A stretch of 64,000 bases of DNA from Halodesulfovibrio aestuarii DSM 17919 = ATCC 29578. GTDB lineage: Bacteria; Desulfobacterota; Desulfovibrionia; Desulfovibrionales; Desulfovibrionaceae. This document shows, one piece after another, positions 18,241 to 26,579 of the stretch (position 1 is the first letter of the stretch; each line of letters opens with the position of its first letter). Below the pieces are notes generated by a model. The model did no database searches, had not been told where the DNA came from, and saw only the letters and a list, made by a program, of their open reading frames with translations. The stretch covers positions 744,001 through 808,000 of the forward strand of contig NZ_ARQF01000020.1 of NCBI RefSeq assembly GCF_000384815.1, written 5' to 3'. Position numbers and translations under genes: made by a program.

Positions 18241-20874
18241 TTATTTTTCAATAATCGGATGATGCGCTGAGTCATATTTACTCATTTCCATAGTATGGCA
18301 TACACAATTGTCTTCGGCGCCAAGCGGTGCTGCATACTTCTGATACTGCAGCGGTGTTATGTTATTCAGAGATTCACCGTAGCCGTTGTCTGCCTGATAA
18401 AGAGCATGCGTCGAACCATGACATGCTTCACACATCACAGCTTCCATGTCATCCTTTCTGTTTTTAAAAAGCCCCTGCGGATCCTTCGTCCATCCGTTAA
18501 CAGCCGAGGCATCACTATCCGGTGACTCAAAATAGGAATGGCATACGCCACAATCCGGTTCATTCACCCAAGCCTCGCGCGGAACCACGTCATCTAATTT
18601 TGCGGATGCGCGCGGGATCAAATTCGCCATAAGCTGTTTTGCTTGTGGCTTACCCTTTTCTTTTTCCGCCTTGAGCAAACTTAACGCGTGATCTTCAATT
18701 GTTCCATGGCAATTTATACAGGTTATCTCACGATCAACGTGCAGCCCGCGCATTCCCTGTGTATTTGTGTTGTGTCCGGCTGGATGACAACTTTCACATG
18801 TTATGTCATCACGATCCGCTAAGTAGTTTGCATGCCAGCCGTGCATAGCCGCTGAAAATCCTAGAACCTGTTTCTTACCGGCATCGCCTGTGCGAGTGGA
18901 TCCGTGACAGGATTGACACTTAGGCGGGGCGCCTCGGTCACTGTCTTCTACCAGTCTGGTTCCGTTAATCTTATCGTGCGCAACAAGAATGTTGTCTGCA
19001 GTTTTATTGGAAATACCTGCAGTCTCAGCTACACGCCATGGTCCGTCATGGCACTTACGGCAGCCCCATTCTGTTGAAACTGGAACAGCCACTCTGGTTG
19101 CAGCAAGCAGTTTTCCGTCAGCAGTCCGCGCTTCGACGTTTAACAATGGGTACGGGTTTACTATGCCATCATCAGAATATGGAAAGACTGGCAACGAACA
19201 AGCAATGAAGGCTCTGTTTTCCTCGTCGAGCTTAAAAGTACCAATGAGATTTGTTTCGCAGATGCCAGTGTCTGACGGCAAGTCTTTGCCTGTAAGTTGC
19301 TTTGCATAATTCCAGAAGGTCACGTGCTCTGCCGGTGTGGAGAATGCTTTCTCTATTCTGTAGGTAAGTGTCACACCTTCTGTGACAATTTCTGGAACTT
19401 CATCCCGCAGAAACAGCTGAGCACGGATGGTTGAGCCGGGAATCTGCATAGTAAATTTTGTATAATTGTCGGAAATGGTATTCATACCTTCTGTTGCCCA
19501 TGCCACAAGCACATACTCAGCTTCTTCCGGATTAAACTCAGGTAAGACCACACCTTCTTCATGCGGCAGTTTAGCTGGCGCCTCTTCAAGCGGCTTGCCC
19601 ATAACCGAGGCGAGATATGCTGCTACCGCTTTTTGTTCGGCATCATTTCCAAGAAACGGCGACATAAATCCACGCAGCTTCCCCTGACCGTTGAACTGCG
19701 AAACTAAGCCATAACGGGTGAGCCCTGCTGCCTCTTTTTTTATAGCAAGCATGGGCCCATTCAGACTGTGGCACGTCATACATTGCACCCGGTAAAGTTC
19801 TTCACCCGCTTTTAACAGATTTTCATCTGTAATTTCTTTAGTACCAATCCACTTTGCATAAGAAAGCATCCCGTTTTCACGGATGGCGTCTGTCTGTGCA
19901 ACATGCACAGAGTTTGACCACATATATTCATGAATAATATACGGACGTCGTCCTGCTTCACGAATCCATTCGAAGGTGCCAATCTGTCCTATGCCAATAA
20001 CAAGAAGCACTCCGAGGAGTGCAGGACGCACAGCCTGTGGCGTGACGAAGACAAAAACCAGAACACCTATGAGAAGGACGGCTGAGAGTGGAAGAAATAT
20101 TTTTACCAGCTGCGGAGTCTGCGCAGATTTGGTTAACACCATGGTAAACTGTGCTGCCGGAAGTGCGACAATGTACCAGACGGCACAAGCGATGAGCAAA
20201 GCAAACGGGAACGCAACAAATCGTACGGCGTAACGGAGCATCTGCTCGCGCGTTTCTACCTCTGTAATACGATATGCCGTTATCAAGGCAAACAGTCCGG
20301 CGAGCATGAGACAGATGGCAAAACGCAATCCGAGAGACGGCCAGAACGTAGGATTCCAGAAACCGTCCCAGAACGATTGTGTCTCAAGCCATTTCCCCGG
20401 AGTCAGCATCATGGAGATAATACCGTTGACGACAACCAGAGATAAGAACGCAAATAACGCGTAAAACCAGCCGACAATCTGATGATCGCGGCGAGACATT
20501 TTGCCAAACCGGTAATGATAGATAAGCAGAGCAACAATTTCACAAAGGAAAAACACCCATTCTGTTGCCCAGCCAAAACTGAATTTATGCACCAGCACAG
20601 ATGTTGCAGCCGGCGAAAGCAGCGCGATAGTGACCCAAATCCCTACACCTGTCATGCCGCCCGCGACCATGGTCAGTATAAGAAAAAACTTTGTATGACG
20701 CTTGACGTACTCAATAATCTGCGGGTTTTCTTCTGCATAGCCTTTGCGTTCTGCCAGTATGAGGAAGAATCCTCCACCAACGGCAAAATGAGCAATAAAC
20801 ACGTGAAAAATTGACATGCACGCAATGAGCAATCCGCCAGAAAAAAACGGAAGCCACCAGACTGGATATTCCAT
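18241..20874 (-). CDS. CydA-like membrane protein fused to a multihaem cytochrome c domain
   Basis: The N-terminal 305 residues are a cytochrome bd subunit I relative with about eight membrane segments. Landmarks are SIFHVFIAHFAVGG (first-helix His, haem b595 region), TEWVFFLCEIV (paired Glu) and EAGRRPYII (the GRQPW region). The loop between segments six and seven is short, so there is no Q-loop, and the fifth segment (GLRFAICLMLAG) has no histidine. After the membrane part come haem sites CMTCH (about residue 365), CRKCH, CQSCH, CESCH, CINCH, CGVCH and CEACH (about 605-815), plus an aberrant CVCH near 857. This suggests the cytochrome-c-bearing branch of the bd superfamily. I chose the ATG at 20874, with GGGGAGG seven bases before it, over one ten codons upstream. 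Confidence 0.85.
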   Translation of the reverse strand: MEYPVWWLPFFSGGLLIACMSIFHVFIAHFAVGGGFFLILAERKGYAEENPQIIEYVKRHTKFFLILTMVAGGMTGVGIWVTIALLSPAATSVLVHKFSFGWATEWVFFLCEIVALLIYHYRFGKMSRRDHQIVGWFYALFAFLSLVVVNGIISMMLTPGKWLETQSFWDGFWNPTFWPSLGLRFAICLMLAGLFALITAYRITEVETREQMLRYAVRFVAFPFALLIACAVWYIVALPAAQFTMVLTKSAQTPQLVKIFLPLSAVLLIGVLVFVFVTPQAVRPALLGVLLVIGIGQIGTFEWIREAGRRPYIIHEYMWSNSVHVAQTDAIRENGMLSYAKWIGTKEITDENLLKAGEELYRVQCMTCHSLNGPMLAIKKEAAGLTRYGLVSQFNGQGKLRGFMSPFLGNDAEQKAVAAYLASVMGKPLEEAPAKLPHEEGVVLPEFNPEEAEYVLVAWATEGMNTISDNYTKFTMQIPGSTIRAQLFLRDEVPEIVTEGVTLTYRIEKAFSTPAEHVTFWNYAKQLTGKDLPSDTGICETNLIGTFKLDEENRAFIACSLPVFPYSDDGIVNPYPLLNVEARTADGKLLAATRVAVPVSTEWGCRKCHDGPWRVAETAGISNKTADNILVAHDKINGTRLVEDSDRGAPPKCQSCHGSTRTGDAGKKQVLGFSAAMHGWHANYLADRDDITCESCHPAGHNTNTQGMRGLHVDREITCINCHGTIEDHALSLLKAEKEKGKPQAKQLMANLIPRASAKLDDVVPREAWVNEPDCGVCHSYFESPDSDASAVNGWTKDPQGLFKNRKDDMEAVMCEACHGSTHALYQADNGYGESLNNITPLQYQKYAAPLGAEDNCVCHTMEMSKYDSAHHPIIEK

Positions 20875-20875
20875 G

Positions 20876-21937
20876 CTATGCCTCCCCGTTGCTACGCATT
20901 GCAAGTTTAATCATATACGCAATAGCAATAAGCCCAAGAACAAGAGAAATAATAAACATCAGGAAAGGAGAATACTCCGCTTGAACTGGAAGAGCTGCGA
21001 TGCCACCGTAAGGATCGAGCATGGCTTTGCGGACAAGAGCCCGTAAACTTGCCATCACAAGAACGGTGACGAGTAGCGCGCTAATGGTGCCGTACAGATT
21101 CCGTGATGCAGCCTCAAAGAGGAGCAGAGCAACAATGGCCAAACCGACTAAAAGTGCACCTGTGTAAAATTCCGACCCACCGGAAAAAAGCCAACGCACT
21201 GGCTCCGGTAAGGCAAAAAACAGAGTTACGCCGACCATGAGTTGCGCCAGCGTGGCGATCAGGAAAATATTCAGCCCCAGCCGTTCTTCACTGATAGCCA
21301 ATTCCTGAGATTCTCTTACAATTATATGGCGAGCAACAATGGCCAAGACAAGCCCGCCTACAGCGATGGATGCAACCACAACATGCAGGTATCGCAACCA
21401 GACCGTTGGGTCGCCAAAGTTAAGGAGCGTCCCATCGGGGGAGGAAAAATAAGCAGCCCACACATCAGGGCGAAGCATTAGTGTCATATTATTTGAAAAG
21501 ACAAGCCCGACACAGAGCATAGCAACAGTACTTATAAAAATAGATGCGGAAAATTTTGTATGTCTCCCGTATCGCGCGGCAAAAAAATACAGAGCAGAAT
21601 AAGCAATAATCGCCAGAAAAACGATGCTCAGCCAATACACAGCCATTAGAATAGAACTTGGGTACACGAATTGCCCATAAAGCATCTGGATAAACAAGAG
21701 AGGCGCAACGCCTAAGTTGACCGCAAAGGCAAAGATTGAAGGCAATACCTTTGCTATTTTTTTTATTGAAAGACTTTTTTTATTCACAACACTGCGGACA
21801 GAGCAGACAAAGGCCCCTCCAAGGACTGCACTCATTAGAAGAATATGCAAGGCGAACGTTATTATCAGAAGTCCTTCCAGCCAACCGGCAGCTACTGGAA
21901 TGGACTCTGGAGCAGGAATAAGAGCAGAAGCTTGCAT
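20876..21937 (-). CDS. Membrane partner subunit of the CydA-like multihaem protein
   Basis: This 353-residue integral membrane protein has about nine hydrophobic segments. Its stop is one base from the start of the CydA-like gene, so the two are surely co-translated and probably form one complex. The first helix, ITFALHILLMSAVLGGAF, echoes the first helix of its neighbour, and a later one reads YLHVVVASIAVGG. Both carry a histidine that could hold a haem. It could be a CydB equivalent or a CydA-derived second subunit as in archaeal CydAA-prime; sequence alone does not settle this. It has no CxxCH motif. Confidence 0.75.
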   Translation of the reverse strand: MQASALIPAPESIPVAAGWLEGLLIITFALHILLMSAVLGGAFVCSVRSVVNKKSLSIKKIAKVLPSIFAFAVNLGVAPLLFIQMLYGQFVYPSSILMAVYWLSIVFLAIIAYSALYFFAARYGRHTKFSASIFISTVAMLCVGLVFSNNMTLMLRPDVWAAYFSSPDGTLLNFGDPTVWLRYLHVVVASIAVGGLVLAIVARHIIVRESQELAISEERLGLNIFLIATLAQLMVGVTLFFALPEPVRWLFSGGSEFYTGALLVGLAIVALLLFEAASRNLYGTISALLVTVLVMASLRALVRKAMLDPYGGIAALPVQAEYSPFLMFIISLVLGLIAIAYMIKLAMRSNGEA

Positions 21938-24591: not shown

Positions 24592-24713
24592 ACCTCCGAC
24601 GGGCAAAGGTTCTGGCCTGCCCCTCTTGCCCCATTACAGTTTATTCTGGAACGGGGCACATGAAAGGTAGTGGAACATAAACCACAAGATCACATAAAAA
24701 ACATATATAAATT
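24592..24713 (-). repeat. Partial copy of the intergenic repeat, inverted
   Basis: Between eno and the flavodiiron gene, 24663-24713 (AAAGGTAGTGGAACATAAAC onward) matches the reverse complement of 8108-8160 (AAAGGTAGTGGAGCATAAGC onward) with few changes. The left part begins CCTCCGACGGGC, like the CCTCCGGCGGG of copy 1. An imperfect hairpin (TGCCCC ... GGGGCA) lies at about 24620-24656. The in-frame ATG at 24670 is inside this repeat and is not the start of the flavodiiron gene. Confidence 0.55.
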
Positions 24714-24771
24714 AACCCACGTGACAACCATGCTACACTCTCTTGGAATTGCAGATAAGCAGGAGAAATTC

Positions 24772-25962
24772 ATGCGTAAAAAAATAGTCGAGGGCGTTTC
24801 ATGGGTCGGAAAAATAGACTGGGAAATCCGCACTACACACGGAATAGAGTATTCCACGCACAAAGGAACATCATACAATGCGTACCTCATTGAAGATAAG
24901 AAAACAGCTTTAGTGGATACTGTATGGGAACCCTATGCAAAGGAGTTTGTCGACAACCTCAAGCTTGAAATAGACTTAGAGCAGATAGATTACATCATCT
25001 GCAATCACGCAGAACCAGACCATAGCGGCGCGTTACCGGCCTTGATGGAATGTATCCCCGACACACCTATTTACTGCACCAAACAGGCTACCATGTCGCT
25101 TCCGGGGCACTATCACCAAAATTGGGATTTTCGTCCTGTCAACACTGGCGACACTCTAAGCCTCGGACAGAACACACTCACCTTTCATCCCATTCCCATG
25201 GTGCACTGGCCGGATTCAATGATGACACACCTTTCCGGTAAAAACATTCTCTTCTCCAACGACGCCTTTGGACAACACTACGCTCATGAACTGCTTTTCA
25301 ATGACCTGGCAGACCAATGCACTCTATATGAAGAGGCAATCAAGTACTTTGCGAATATCCTTACCCCGTTCAGCTCCATTATAAAAAGCCGCATTGAAGA
25401 CTTCCTTGCAACCTCACTCCCCGTTGAGCTGATTGCAACAAGCCATGGTATACTCTGGCACAAAAATCCGGAGCAGATTATCGAACAGTATCTGCAATGG
25501 TGTGATGCGTATCAGGAAGACCAGATCACGATTATTTATGATTCAATGTACAATTCGACAAAAGTAATCGCAGAAACTATTGCGCACGGAATTTTACAGC
25601 ACAGTCCTGCAACACGAGTAAAACTTTTTCATGCAGGTAAAGCGGATAAAAACGATATAATTACAGAAGTATTCCGTTCTAAAGCCGTGCTGCTAGGCTC
25701 GCCAACATTCAACAAAGGGCCTCTATCAAGCCTGTCTGCACTGATTGAAGATTTTCATGGTTTAAAATTTATGGGTAAAAAAGCAAACGCATTTACGTCG
25801 TATGGATGGAGCGGTGAAGCTGCAAAACTGATGCTTGCACAACTTATGGATGCAGGTTTTGAAATTACCGGCGACGGGTTTCGTGTAAACTGGAGAATGG
25901 ATGCCGAAGAACGCCATGCAGCACTGCAATTCGGAGTCGATTTTGCCGCGGCAACATTCTAA
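24772..25962 (+). CDS. roo: Flavodiiron protein, rubredoxin:oxygen oxidoreductase type
   Basis: This cytoplasmic flavodiiron protein reduces O2 to water, and in some members NO to N2O, with electrons from rubredoxin. The beta-lactamase-like diiron domain carries the ligands in NHAEPDHSG, PMVHWPDSM, SNDAFGQHYAHE and ATSHGILW. A flavodoxin-like FMN domain fills the C-terminal 150 residues (IIYDSMYNSTKVIAE, AVLLGSPTFNKGP, AFTSYGWSGEAAK). I chose the ATG at 24772 because AGGAG stands six bases before it; the protein is then 396 residues, close to Desulfovibrio ROO. No rubredoxin gene is adjacent. It is followed after 128 bases by a haem lipoprotein gene on the same strand. Confidence 0.93.
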   Translation: MRKKIVEGVSWVGKIDWEIRTTHGIEYSTHKGTSYNAYLIEDKKTALVDTVWEPYAKEFVDNLKLEIDLEQIDYIICNHAEPDHSGALPALMECIPDTPIYCTKQATMSLPGHYHQNWDFRPVNTGDTLSLGQNTLTFHPIPMVHWPDSMMTHLSGKNILFSNDAFGQHYAHELLFNDLADQCTLYEEAIKYFANILTPFSSIIKSRIEDFLATSLPVELIATSHGILWHKNPEQIIEQYLQWCDAYQEDQITIIYDSMYNSTKVIAETIAHGILQHSPATRVKLFHAGKADKNDIITEVFRSKAVLLGSPTFNKGPLSSLSALIEDFHGLKFMGKKANAFTSYGWSGEAAKLMLAQLMDAGFEITGDGFRVNWRMDAEERHAALQFGVDFAAATF

Positions 25963-26090
25963 AAAGAACATATTATAAAAAATACGCATTATATAATAAA
26001 TATAAAACAAAAATCAACAAGTAATAACACACATTGCATAATTGTTACTATATACAACAACTAGTTTATTTGACGACGCGGAGGATTATC

Positions 26091-26579
26091 ATGAAACGAT
26101 GTCTTATGGTTGCCTGCTTCATCATCTCCCTAAGCTTGTTCACTGCATGTTCATTATTTCAACCTGCCAACATTAAAAAACCTCCGATGACAACGGCCTC
26201 CGCACTTTGGCAGTACATAACCATAACAGATCCCTACACAGAATGGGAACAGTTCGACGACACGGCAGGCATGCAGATCGGCGCACCACCCCACGGACCT
26301 CGGATTCAGATATATCCCAATAAAATTGCATCGCGCTCAGTATACAAAGCGAATGAGGGTTCCATCATTGTAATGGAAAACTATAATAAAGACGAAAAGA
26401 CACTCCTTACCATAAATCTCATGCAAAAACGCCCAAACTACGCCCCTTCCGCTGGAAATTGGTTTTGGGCTGCGTATGAACCGGACGGAACGGTCATTGA
26501 GGAAGGTAAAATCAAACGATGTGTTGAATGTCACGTAAGCATGGCGTTTGATGATTACACGTTTATTCACCAATGGTGA
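26091..26579 (+). CDS. Lipoprotein with cytochrome P460-type haem domain
   Basis: This 162-residue protein begins MKRCLMVACFIISLSLFTAC, a lipoprotein signal with the lipobox LFTAC, so it should be anchored in the periplasm. The body resembles the cytochrome P460 domain family: GSIIVMENYNKDEKTLL, NWFWAAYEPDGTV, then a single haem c site CVECH near the C-terminus followed by the family-like DDYTFIHQW. P460 proteins oxidise hydroxylamine or bind NO in some bacteria. Many anaerobes carry relatives with no known role. The start at 26091 (GAGGATTATCATG) is favoured over an upstream in-frame ATG with no ribosome site. Function is not assigned. Confidence 0.8.
   Translation: MKRCLMVACFIISLSLFTACSLFQPANIKKPPMTTASALWQYITITDPYTEWEQFDDTAGMQIGAPPHGPRIQIYPNKIASRSVYKANEGSIIVMENYNKDEKTLLTINLMQKRPNYAPSAGNWFWAAYEPDGTVIEEGKIKRCVECHVSMAFDDYTFIHQW

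Follow-up and report, generated by a model that had tools for sequence, protein, structure and literature searches.

Within the cytochrome bd superfamily, the OR-C branch described by Murali, Gennis and Hemp in 2021 reportedly has a CydA-type core that carries c-type haem and has no quinol site. The closest published system to the one considered here is the CydA homologue of the cable bacteria (Desulfobulbaceae), which likewise has a CydA-type core and a periplasmic c domain, and no CydB. The branch names OR-C and OR-N are cited in passages of PMC13189123, PMC11707229 and PMC10839748, and a section of the last of these describes the OR-N CydAA' of Nitrospinota and Nitrospirota as two CydA paralogs which are thought to associate and for which cytochrome c is the likely donor. 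Periplasmic oxygen (O2) reduction by Desulfovibrio is cited in part of PMC13047784, where the cable-bacteria CydA homologue is named as a candidate. Here we describe a pair of genes, A and B, from Halodesulfovibrio aestuarii DSM 17919 = ATCC 29578. They lie in a stretch of 64,000 nucleotides, referred to as the window (positions 744,001 to 808,000 of contig NZ_ARQF01000020.1). On balance we lean towards the view that A and B, as two CydA-type paralogs, would make up a heterodimer in the membrane that reduces O2 with electrons from periplasmic cytochromes. The features of the pair, in window coordinates, are as follows.

18241..20874, minus strand: gene A, a CydA-type membrane core with a class-I c-haem domain and a multihaem tail; 877 amino acids, full-length relatives found
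19885..20874, minus strand: A, CydA-type core, residues 1-330, with H24, E105, E112, E306 and GRRPY; placed by PF01654, the 5doq_A match and hydropathy
19600..19830, minus strand: A, class-I c-type domain, residues about 349-425, with CMTCH at 365-369 and an invariant M404
19075..19587, minus strand: A, haem-free stretch, residues about 430-600, for which no separate Pfam family scores above cut-off
18244..19074, minus strand: A, multihaem tail, residues 601-877, with six CxxCH and one CxCH
18295..18306, minus strand: A, eighth haem site, CVCH, residues 857-860, one residue shorter than in relatives
20876..21937, minus strand: gene B, a CydA paralog (CydA'-like) of 353 amino acids, with H31 and H185
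20881..20887, minus strand: GGGGAGG, a ribosome-binding-like sequence for A, inside the end of B

Gene A is a single unbroken frame of 877 codons that starts at ATG, and because GGGGAGG sits six bases upstream of this codon, a longer frame from a TTG start is less likely. A first-pass annotation, made from the DNA letters, had proposed a CydA-type core fused to a c-haem region with seven CxxCH sites. The count is right (residues 365, 605, 653, 693, 719, 775 and 815) and so is the fusion, since the C-terminal haem region, which is a separate gene in some other genomes, shares its gene with the core here. By homology to CydA, A can be placed in the cytochrome bd superfamily: PF01654 is matched at residues 17-230 (E 7.6e-8; 31.8 bits against a cut-off of 26.2), and profile comparison with canonical CydA gives E 1.5e-7. 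The best solved-structure match of the profile from A4, a 53-row alignment of A relatives, is 5doq_A (E 2e-7), which we take to be the Geobacillus enzyme; when the core was compared as one sequence with the solved structures, no bd chain came up. Eight helices are predicted in the core from hydropathy and loop charges, with one short raw segment merged, and both of its ends are predicted to be outside, so that the c-haems of A would be periplasmic. Residues 354-421 match a cbb3-type c domain at 22.9 bits, under its Pfam cut-off of 27, and C-terminal to this domain there are Cytochrom_c3_2 and Cytochrome_C7 matches above cut-off. Catalysis in the tail of the kind seen in octahaem tetrathionate reductase was considered and rejected, as A has no CxxCK and there is enough invariant spare histidine (633, 678, 681, 712, 823, 871 and 872) for a bis-His wire.

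To place the active-site residues, A was aligned to CydA of E. coli K-12 and to canonical CydA of relatives. Residues H24, E105, E112, E306 and R309 of A align with His19, Glu99, Glu107, Glu445 and Arg448, and these five places are conserved throughout the 53 rows of A4 and throughout a set of 32 A-type cores drawn from four layouts. The place of His186 is occupied in A4 by Phe (49 rows) or Leu (four), followed by an invariant Arg, and it is never His either there or in the 32 cores. The Q-loop is missing from A in this alignment and there is no Met at the Met393 place. GRRPY stands where E. coli has GRQPW, and the two glutamates are seven residues apart, compared with eight in E. coli. This spacing fits the Geobacillus type, which is described in part of PMC8951039 as being without the inserted Leu101 between the glutamates; the haem arrangement of cytochrome bd is also taken from that source (section 2.4). 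A resembles canonical CydAB (E. coli K-12; Geobacillus 5doq) in its N-terminal helices, in the His19, Glu99, Glu107 and Glu445 places and in the GRxPW/Y place. It differs in lacking the Q-loop, His186 and Met393, in having a partner that is not CydB and in its added haem tail. The first-pass annotation had read the Q-loop and His186 as absent and the GRQPW-like and paired-glutamate motifs as present, and on each point the alignment agrees. Where a quinol oxidase (qOR/CydAB) would have an intact quinol site and all b-haem ligands, A has no Q-loop and neither of the b558 ligands. By alignment, then, A has the residues with which CydA binds and reduces O2, without those for taking electrons from quinol.

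The second subunit, which had also been called unusual, is a CydA paralog. Its stop codon ends at 20876, one base from the ATG of A at 20874, and nine helices are predicted by hydropathy after merging of short raw segments. B has no family in the Pfam scan of the window proteins; PF01654 is touched by one of 53 B proteins (E 6e-4), and a genome search with PF01654 touches the B of the window at 8.7e-4, over profile positions 170-230. In profile comparison B matches the A core at E 4.5e-8 and 9.2e-10, or 1.7e-12 with deeper sets, and a profile built from 28 diverse B proteins matches canonical CydA at E 6.7e-8 (prob 94.6), against E 0.12 and 0.23 for the CydB control, on which grounds the candidate identity of B as CydB was rejected. 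Comparison with solved structures gave chance matches only. In the profile alignment B H31 falls on His19 and B H185 on His186, while no Glu stands at the Glu107 place and nothing is aligned to Glu99. Conservation over 53 rows, with that of L093 in the corrected frame, is complete for H31, M295 and R299 and 52/53 for H185; among 28 deeper B proteins it is 28/28 for H31 and 27/28 for H185. (The Pfam scan of the 53 B proteins, and the genome searches with B that are reported below, used alignment A3, in which the L093 row is in the wrong frame.) On this alignment and these counts, the residues of the O2 site are found in A, which has no b558 histidine; the histidine is found in B, which in turn is without the glutamates.

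The two genes almost always occur in the same genomes. A search of 247 Desulfobacterota genomes found an A4 match in 60, comprising 49 with the core (16 with long A, 27 with short A, five of a third type and one fragment) and 11 with the C-terminal part only. B was found in 50 of the 247, including 49 of 49 with an A core; A is therefore present in 49 of the 50 B-carrying genomes, the exception being G274, where B lies near a contig end. At 80 loci, the best 80 of 433 relatives in GTDB, B ends at most 227 bases from A in 70, three begin at A, and in seven the upstream 1 to 8 kb holds no B. We considered that B might be absent where A stands alone, and rejected this because a single B lies elsewhere in each of those seven genomes and in G341 (8/8). 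No constant third partner was found among the A loci, where only B recurs widely; the next commonest neighbours are response regulators (16 loci), a purF-like gene (11), efflux genes (nine) and flavodiiron genes (eight). In a tree of 62 rows, the A-type and B-type proteins form separate clades with mirrored branching. Of its 59 inner branches, 34 have good support; 12 forks are left open, and three of the rows are long. The A-type cores make up a clade of their own (100/99), outside that of the OR-N-like Nitrospirota proteins.

Comparison with the described systems helps to place the pair. A carries c-type haem on the CydA chain, and by the reported definition of that branch A-B is probably of the OR-C kind. 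A-B is also like OR-N CydAA' in consisting of two CydA paralogs with cytochrome c as likely donor, the paralogy and genomic pairing of A and B being seen in their sequences. The Nitrospirota proteins that we label OR-N-like are unlike A: they have His at the 186 place (11/11), their 99 and 445 places are without Glu, and they carry no c-haem. Lone CydA-c homologues occur in a Desulfobulbaceae family (L247 5692-6963, L248 5051-6319 and L249 4738-6006) and, from their family and layout, may be the cable-bacteria protein. They differ from A in having a single c-haem, in keeping His at the 186 place (3/3) and in having Leu at the 107 place. B was not found in any of these three genomes at E 1, with the same query that matched in 50 of 247 Desulfobacterota genomes. 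No fusion of CydA to a multihaem domain with a CydA-like partner was found in the open-licence literature searched, mostly as titles and the starts of abstracts.

A third layout at L132 (5192-8994), L216, L217 and L224 consists of a dihaem cytochrome gene, an A with one c-haem and a B with two C-terminal c-haems of its own. Stand-alone relatives of the C-terminal module of A were seen at L135 (5603-7522), L136 (5297-6565) and L138 (5965-7857), with eight, six and nine CxxCH, respectively; the L135 protein also touches the MtrC/MtrF domain family.

The tail of A holds one further site, CVCH, that a count of CxxCH passes over. In a comparison of 30 loci the eighth site is CxCH in all ten from Halodesulfovibrio and CxxCH in all 20 from outside the genus. 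Among the 80 loci, a list which overlaps with the 30 in some species, 75 have eight CxxCH, and the five exceptions are three Halodesulfovibrio loci, one cut by a contig end (L081) and one with a broken A frame (L102). In view of the 20 loci and the 75 of 80, the ancestral number of haems was probably eight, and an earlier view of seven as the ancestral state was revised. In 10/10 Halodesulfovibrio loci the eighth site retains its two cysteines and its histidine, which suggests that it is still in use, and CxCH here is a possible natural haem site. No CXCH haem site with cytochrome c maturation was found in the open-licence literature searched.

Among named records the best matches come from Halodesulfovibrio, with identities of 82, 76 and 59%. 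An A match, in some cases only partial, is present in 62 of 99 relatives of the window genome, and one Desulfobulbaceae family has it in 35 of 73 genomes. B matches were found in 14 of 80 Nitrospirota genomes. By title, those of the 80 loci that lie outside the Desulfobacterota come from Calditrichaeota, KSB1, CSSED10-310, Bacteroidetes, Nitrospiraceae, Ignavibacteria, Kapabacteria, Verrucomicrobia and Cloacimonadota, for the most part from metagenome-assembled genomes. The genome of the window also carries a canonical cydA. Canonical CydA occurs in 15 of 16 long-A genomes as opposed to 95 of the 231 others (Fisher 3e-5, a P value that is too good because kinship was ignored), and in all five genomes of the third type.

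In part of the family the genes around A-B are those of oxygen defence. The window has one such neighbour, 2.7 kb beyond the start of B, with coaX and eno between:

24670..25962, plus strand: flavodiiron protein (FprA type), a neighbour and not part of the A-B pair

Eight of the 80 loci have a flavodiiron gene no more than about 5.1 kb from A, and seven of these eight are Desulfobacterales relatives. About 0.3 such loci would be expected from 25 strong matches in 20 genomes of about 74 Mb with 898 kb of flanks, eight of the 20 genomes having been picked for having the gene. At L221 a run of genes on one strand begins with rubrerythrin, desulfoferrodoxin and flavodoxin, continues with cydA, cydB and genes for a c3-type cytochrome, an FMN-reductase family member, flavodiiron and a HEAT protein, and finishes with B and A, while another rubrerythrin adjoins this run on the opposite strand; the labels come from Pfam and in part from L264 homologues. 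Where B has no adjacent A it stays in an oxygen-defence cluster at L259, L263 and L264, and partly at L262. A HEAT-repeat protein lies directly upstream of B in Desulfobacterales clusters (L264 6822-7481, L221 7297-8031, L041 6007-6699).

How such a pair might work can be set out as a path for electrons. A soluble periplasmic cytochrome, probably c3, would reduce the multihaem tail of A, from which electrons would pass to the class-I c-haem. They would then cross a low-spin haem b, for which B would supply H185 and perhaps M295, and reach the O2 site of A with its two haems (H24, E105, E306); proton uptake would run through A E112. B would offer the low-spin haem site that is absent from A, since the His186 place is filled in B and empty in A. 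The main use would be the disposal of O2 in an anaerobe. The full version of this model is a bd-type oxidase with a divided haem set, in which A has lost the low-spin haem site, B keeps only that site, and the octahaem arm lets periplasmic cytochromes burn O2 without quinone. We hold it tentatively, at rather less than even confidence. The first-pass annotation had left the choice between a c-haem-fed O2 reductase and a different redox enzyme; the former is now the best-supported reading, with O2 as the acceptor inferred from sequence.

Several observations weigh against an O2-reducing heterodimer with a haem in B. The sixth ligand of the proposed haem is a guess, A has lost Met393, and the B of L086 has Lys at 185. 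The first comparisons of B with CydA were not significant (E 0.13 with E. coli alone; E 0.04 with a shallower profile, for which 20 of 21 canonical CydA sequences were used and L131 was left out). The flavodiiron gene of the window is divergent from A-B, loci with such a gene near A are a minority, and most of the remaining loci among the 80 show no oxygen-defence genes nearby. No cluster is visible at four of the eight A-free B loci (L258, L260, L261 and L265), which include short contigs and contig ends. Canonical CydA occurs in 15 of 27 short-A genomes, where it is no commoner than elsewhere.

Some of these points would be accommodated if B were haem-free and a structural partner only, as CydB is, with the c-haem of A feeding the active-site haems directly. 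This alternative concerns mechanism and is compatible with O2 reduction by A-B. The L086 lysine agrees with it, as do the lack in B of the glutamate places of CydA and of an identified sixth ligand for a His186-type haem. It is nevertheless hard to reconcile with the conservation of H31 and H185 in the deep B homologues, or with the His186 place being empty in A exactly where B exists and kept in the lone homologues, and we regard it as somewhat unlikely. It is also conceivable that A-B is a quinol/cytochrome c oxidoreductase, in which electrons would move between menaquinol, bound in B or at the A-B interface, and the haem tail, with no O2 chemistry. The cable-bacteria CydA homologue without CydB has been proposed, in part of PMC12093952, as an electron route to the periplasm; members of the A family are common in anaerobes, and electron export would be well served by a long haem wire. 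However, A has no Q-loop, the ligands of the O2 site, like the Glu107 place, are conserved in 53/53 rows although mere electron transfer would not need them, and the gene neighbourhood is one of oxygen defence, all of which makes such an enzyme the less probable choice and, in our judgement, an unlikely one. A cytochrome-fed enzyme for the removal of nitric oxide (NO), with NO or peroxide as the real substrate, seems more improbable still. Flavodiiron proteins reduce NO as well as O2 (Roo/NorV, in part of PMC11451228), and a P460-type cytochrome adjoins the flavodiiron gene in two Halodesulfovibrio genomes (window 26034-26579; L032 2295-2780). The clusters also hold cydAB, desulfoferrodoxin, rubrerythrin and rubredoxin, however, which point to O2 and its products.

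The route by which sulfate reducers and cable bacteria pass periplasmic electrons to O2 is unsettled. The A-B pair is widespread, has one half without a Pfam family and leads to predictions that are sharp and testable. If the haem ligands are truly shared between the two paralogs, the pair would show how a single-chain enzyme can be split after gene duplication. Were the divided-haem model correct, A-B would be an O2 reductase fed by periplasmic electrons, present in sulfate reducers and in further anaerobes from several phyla.

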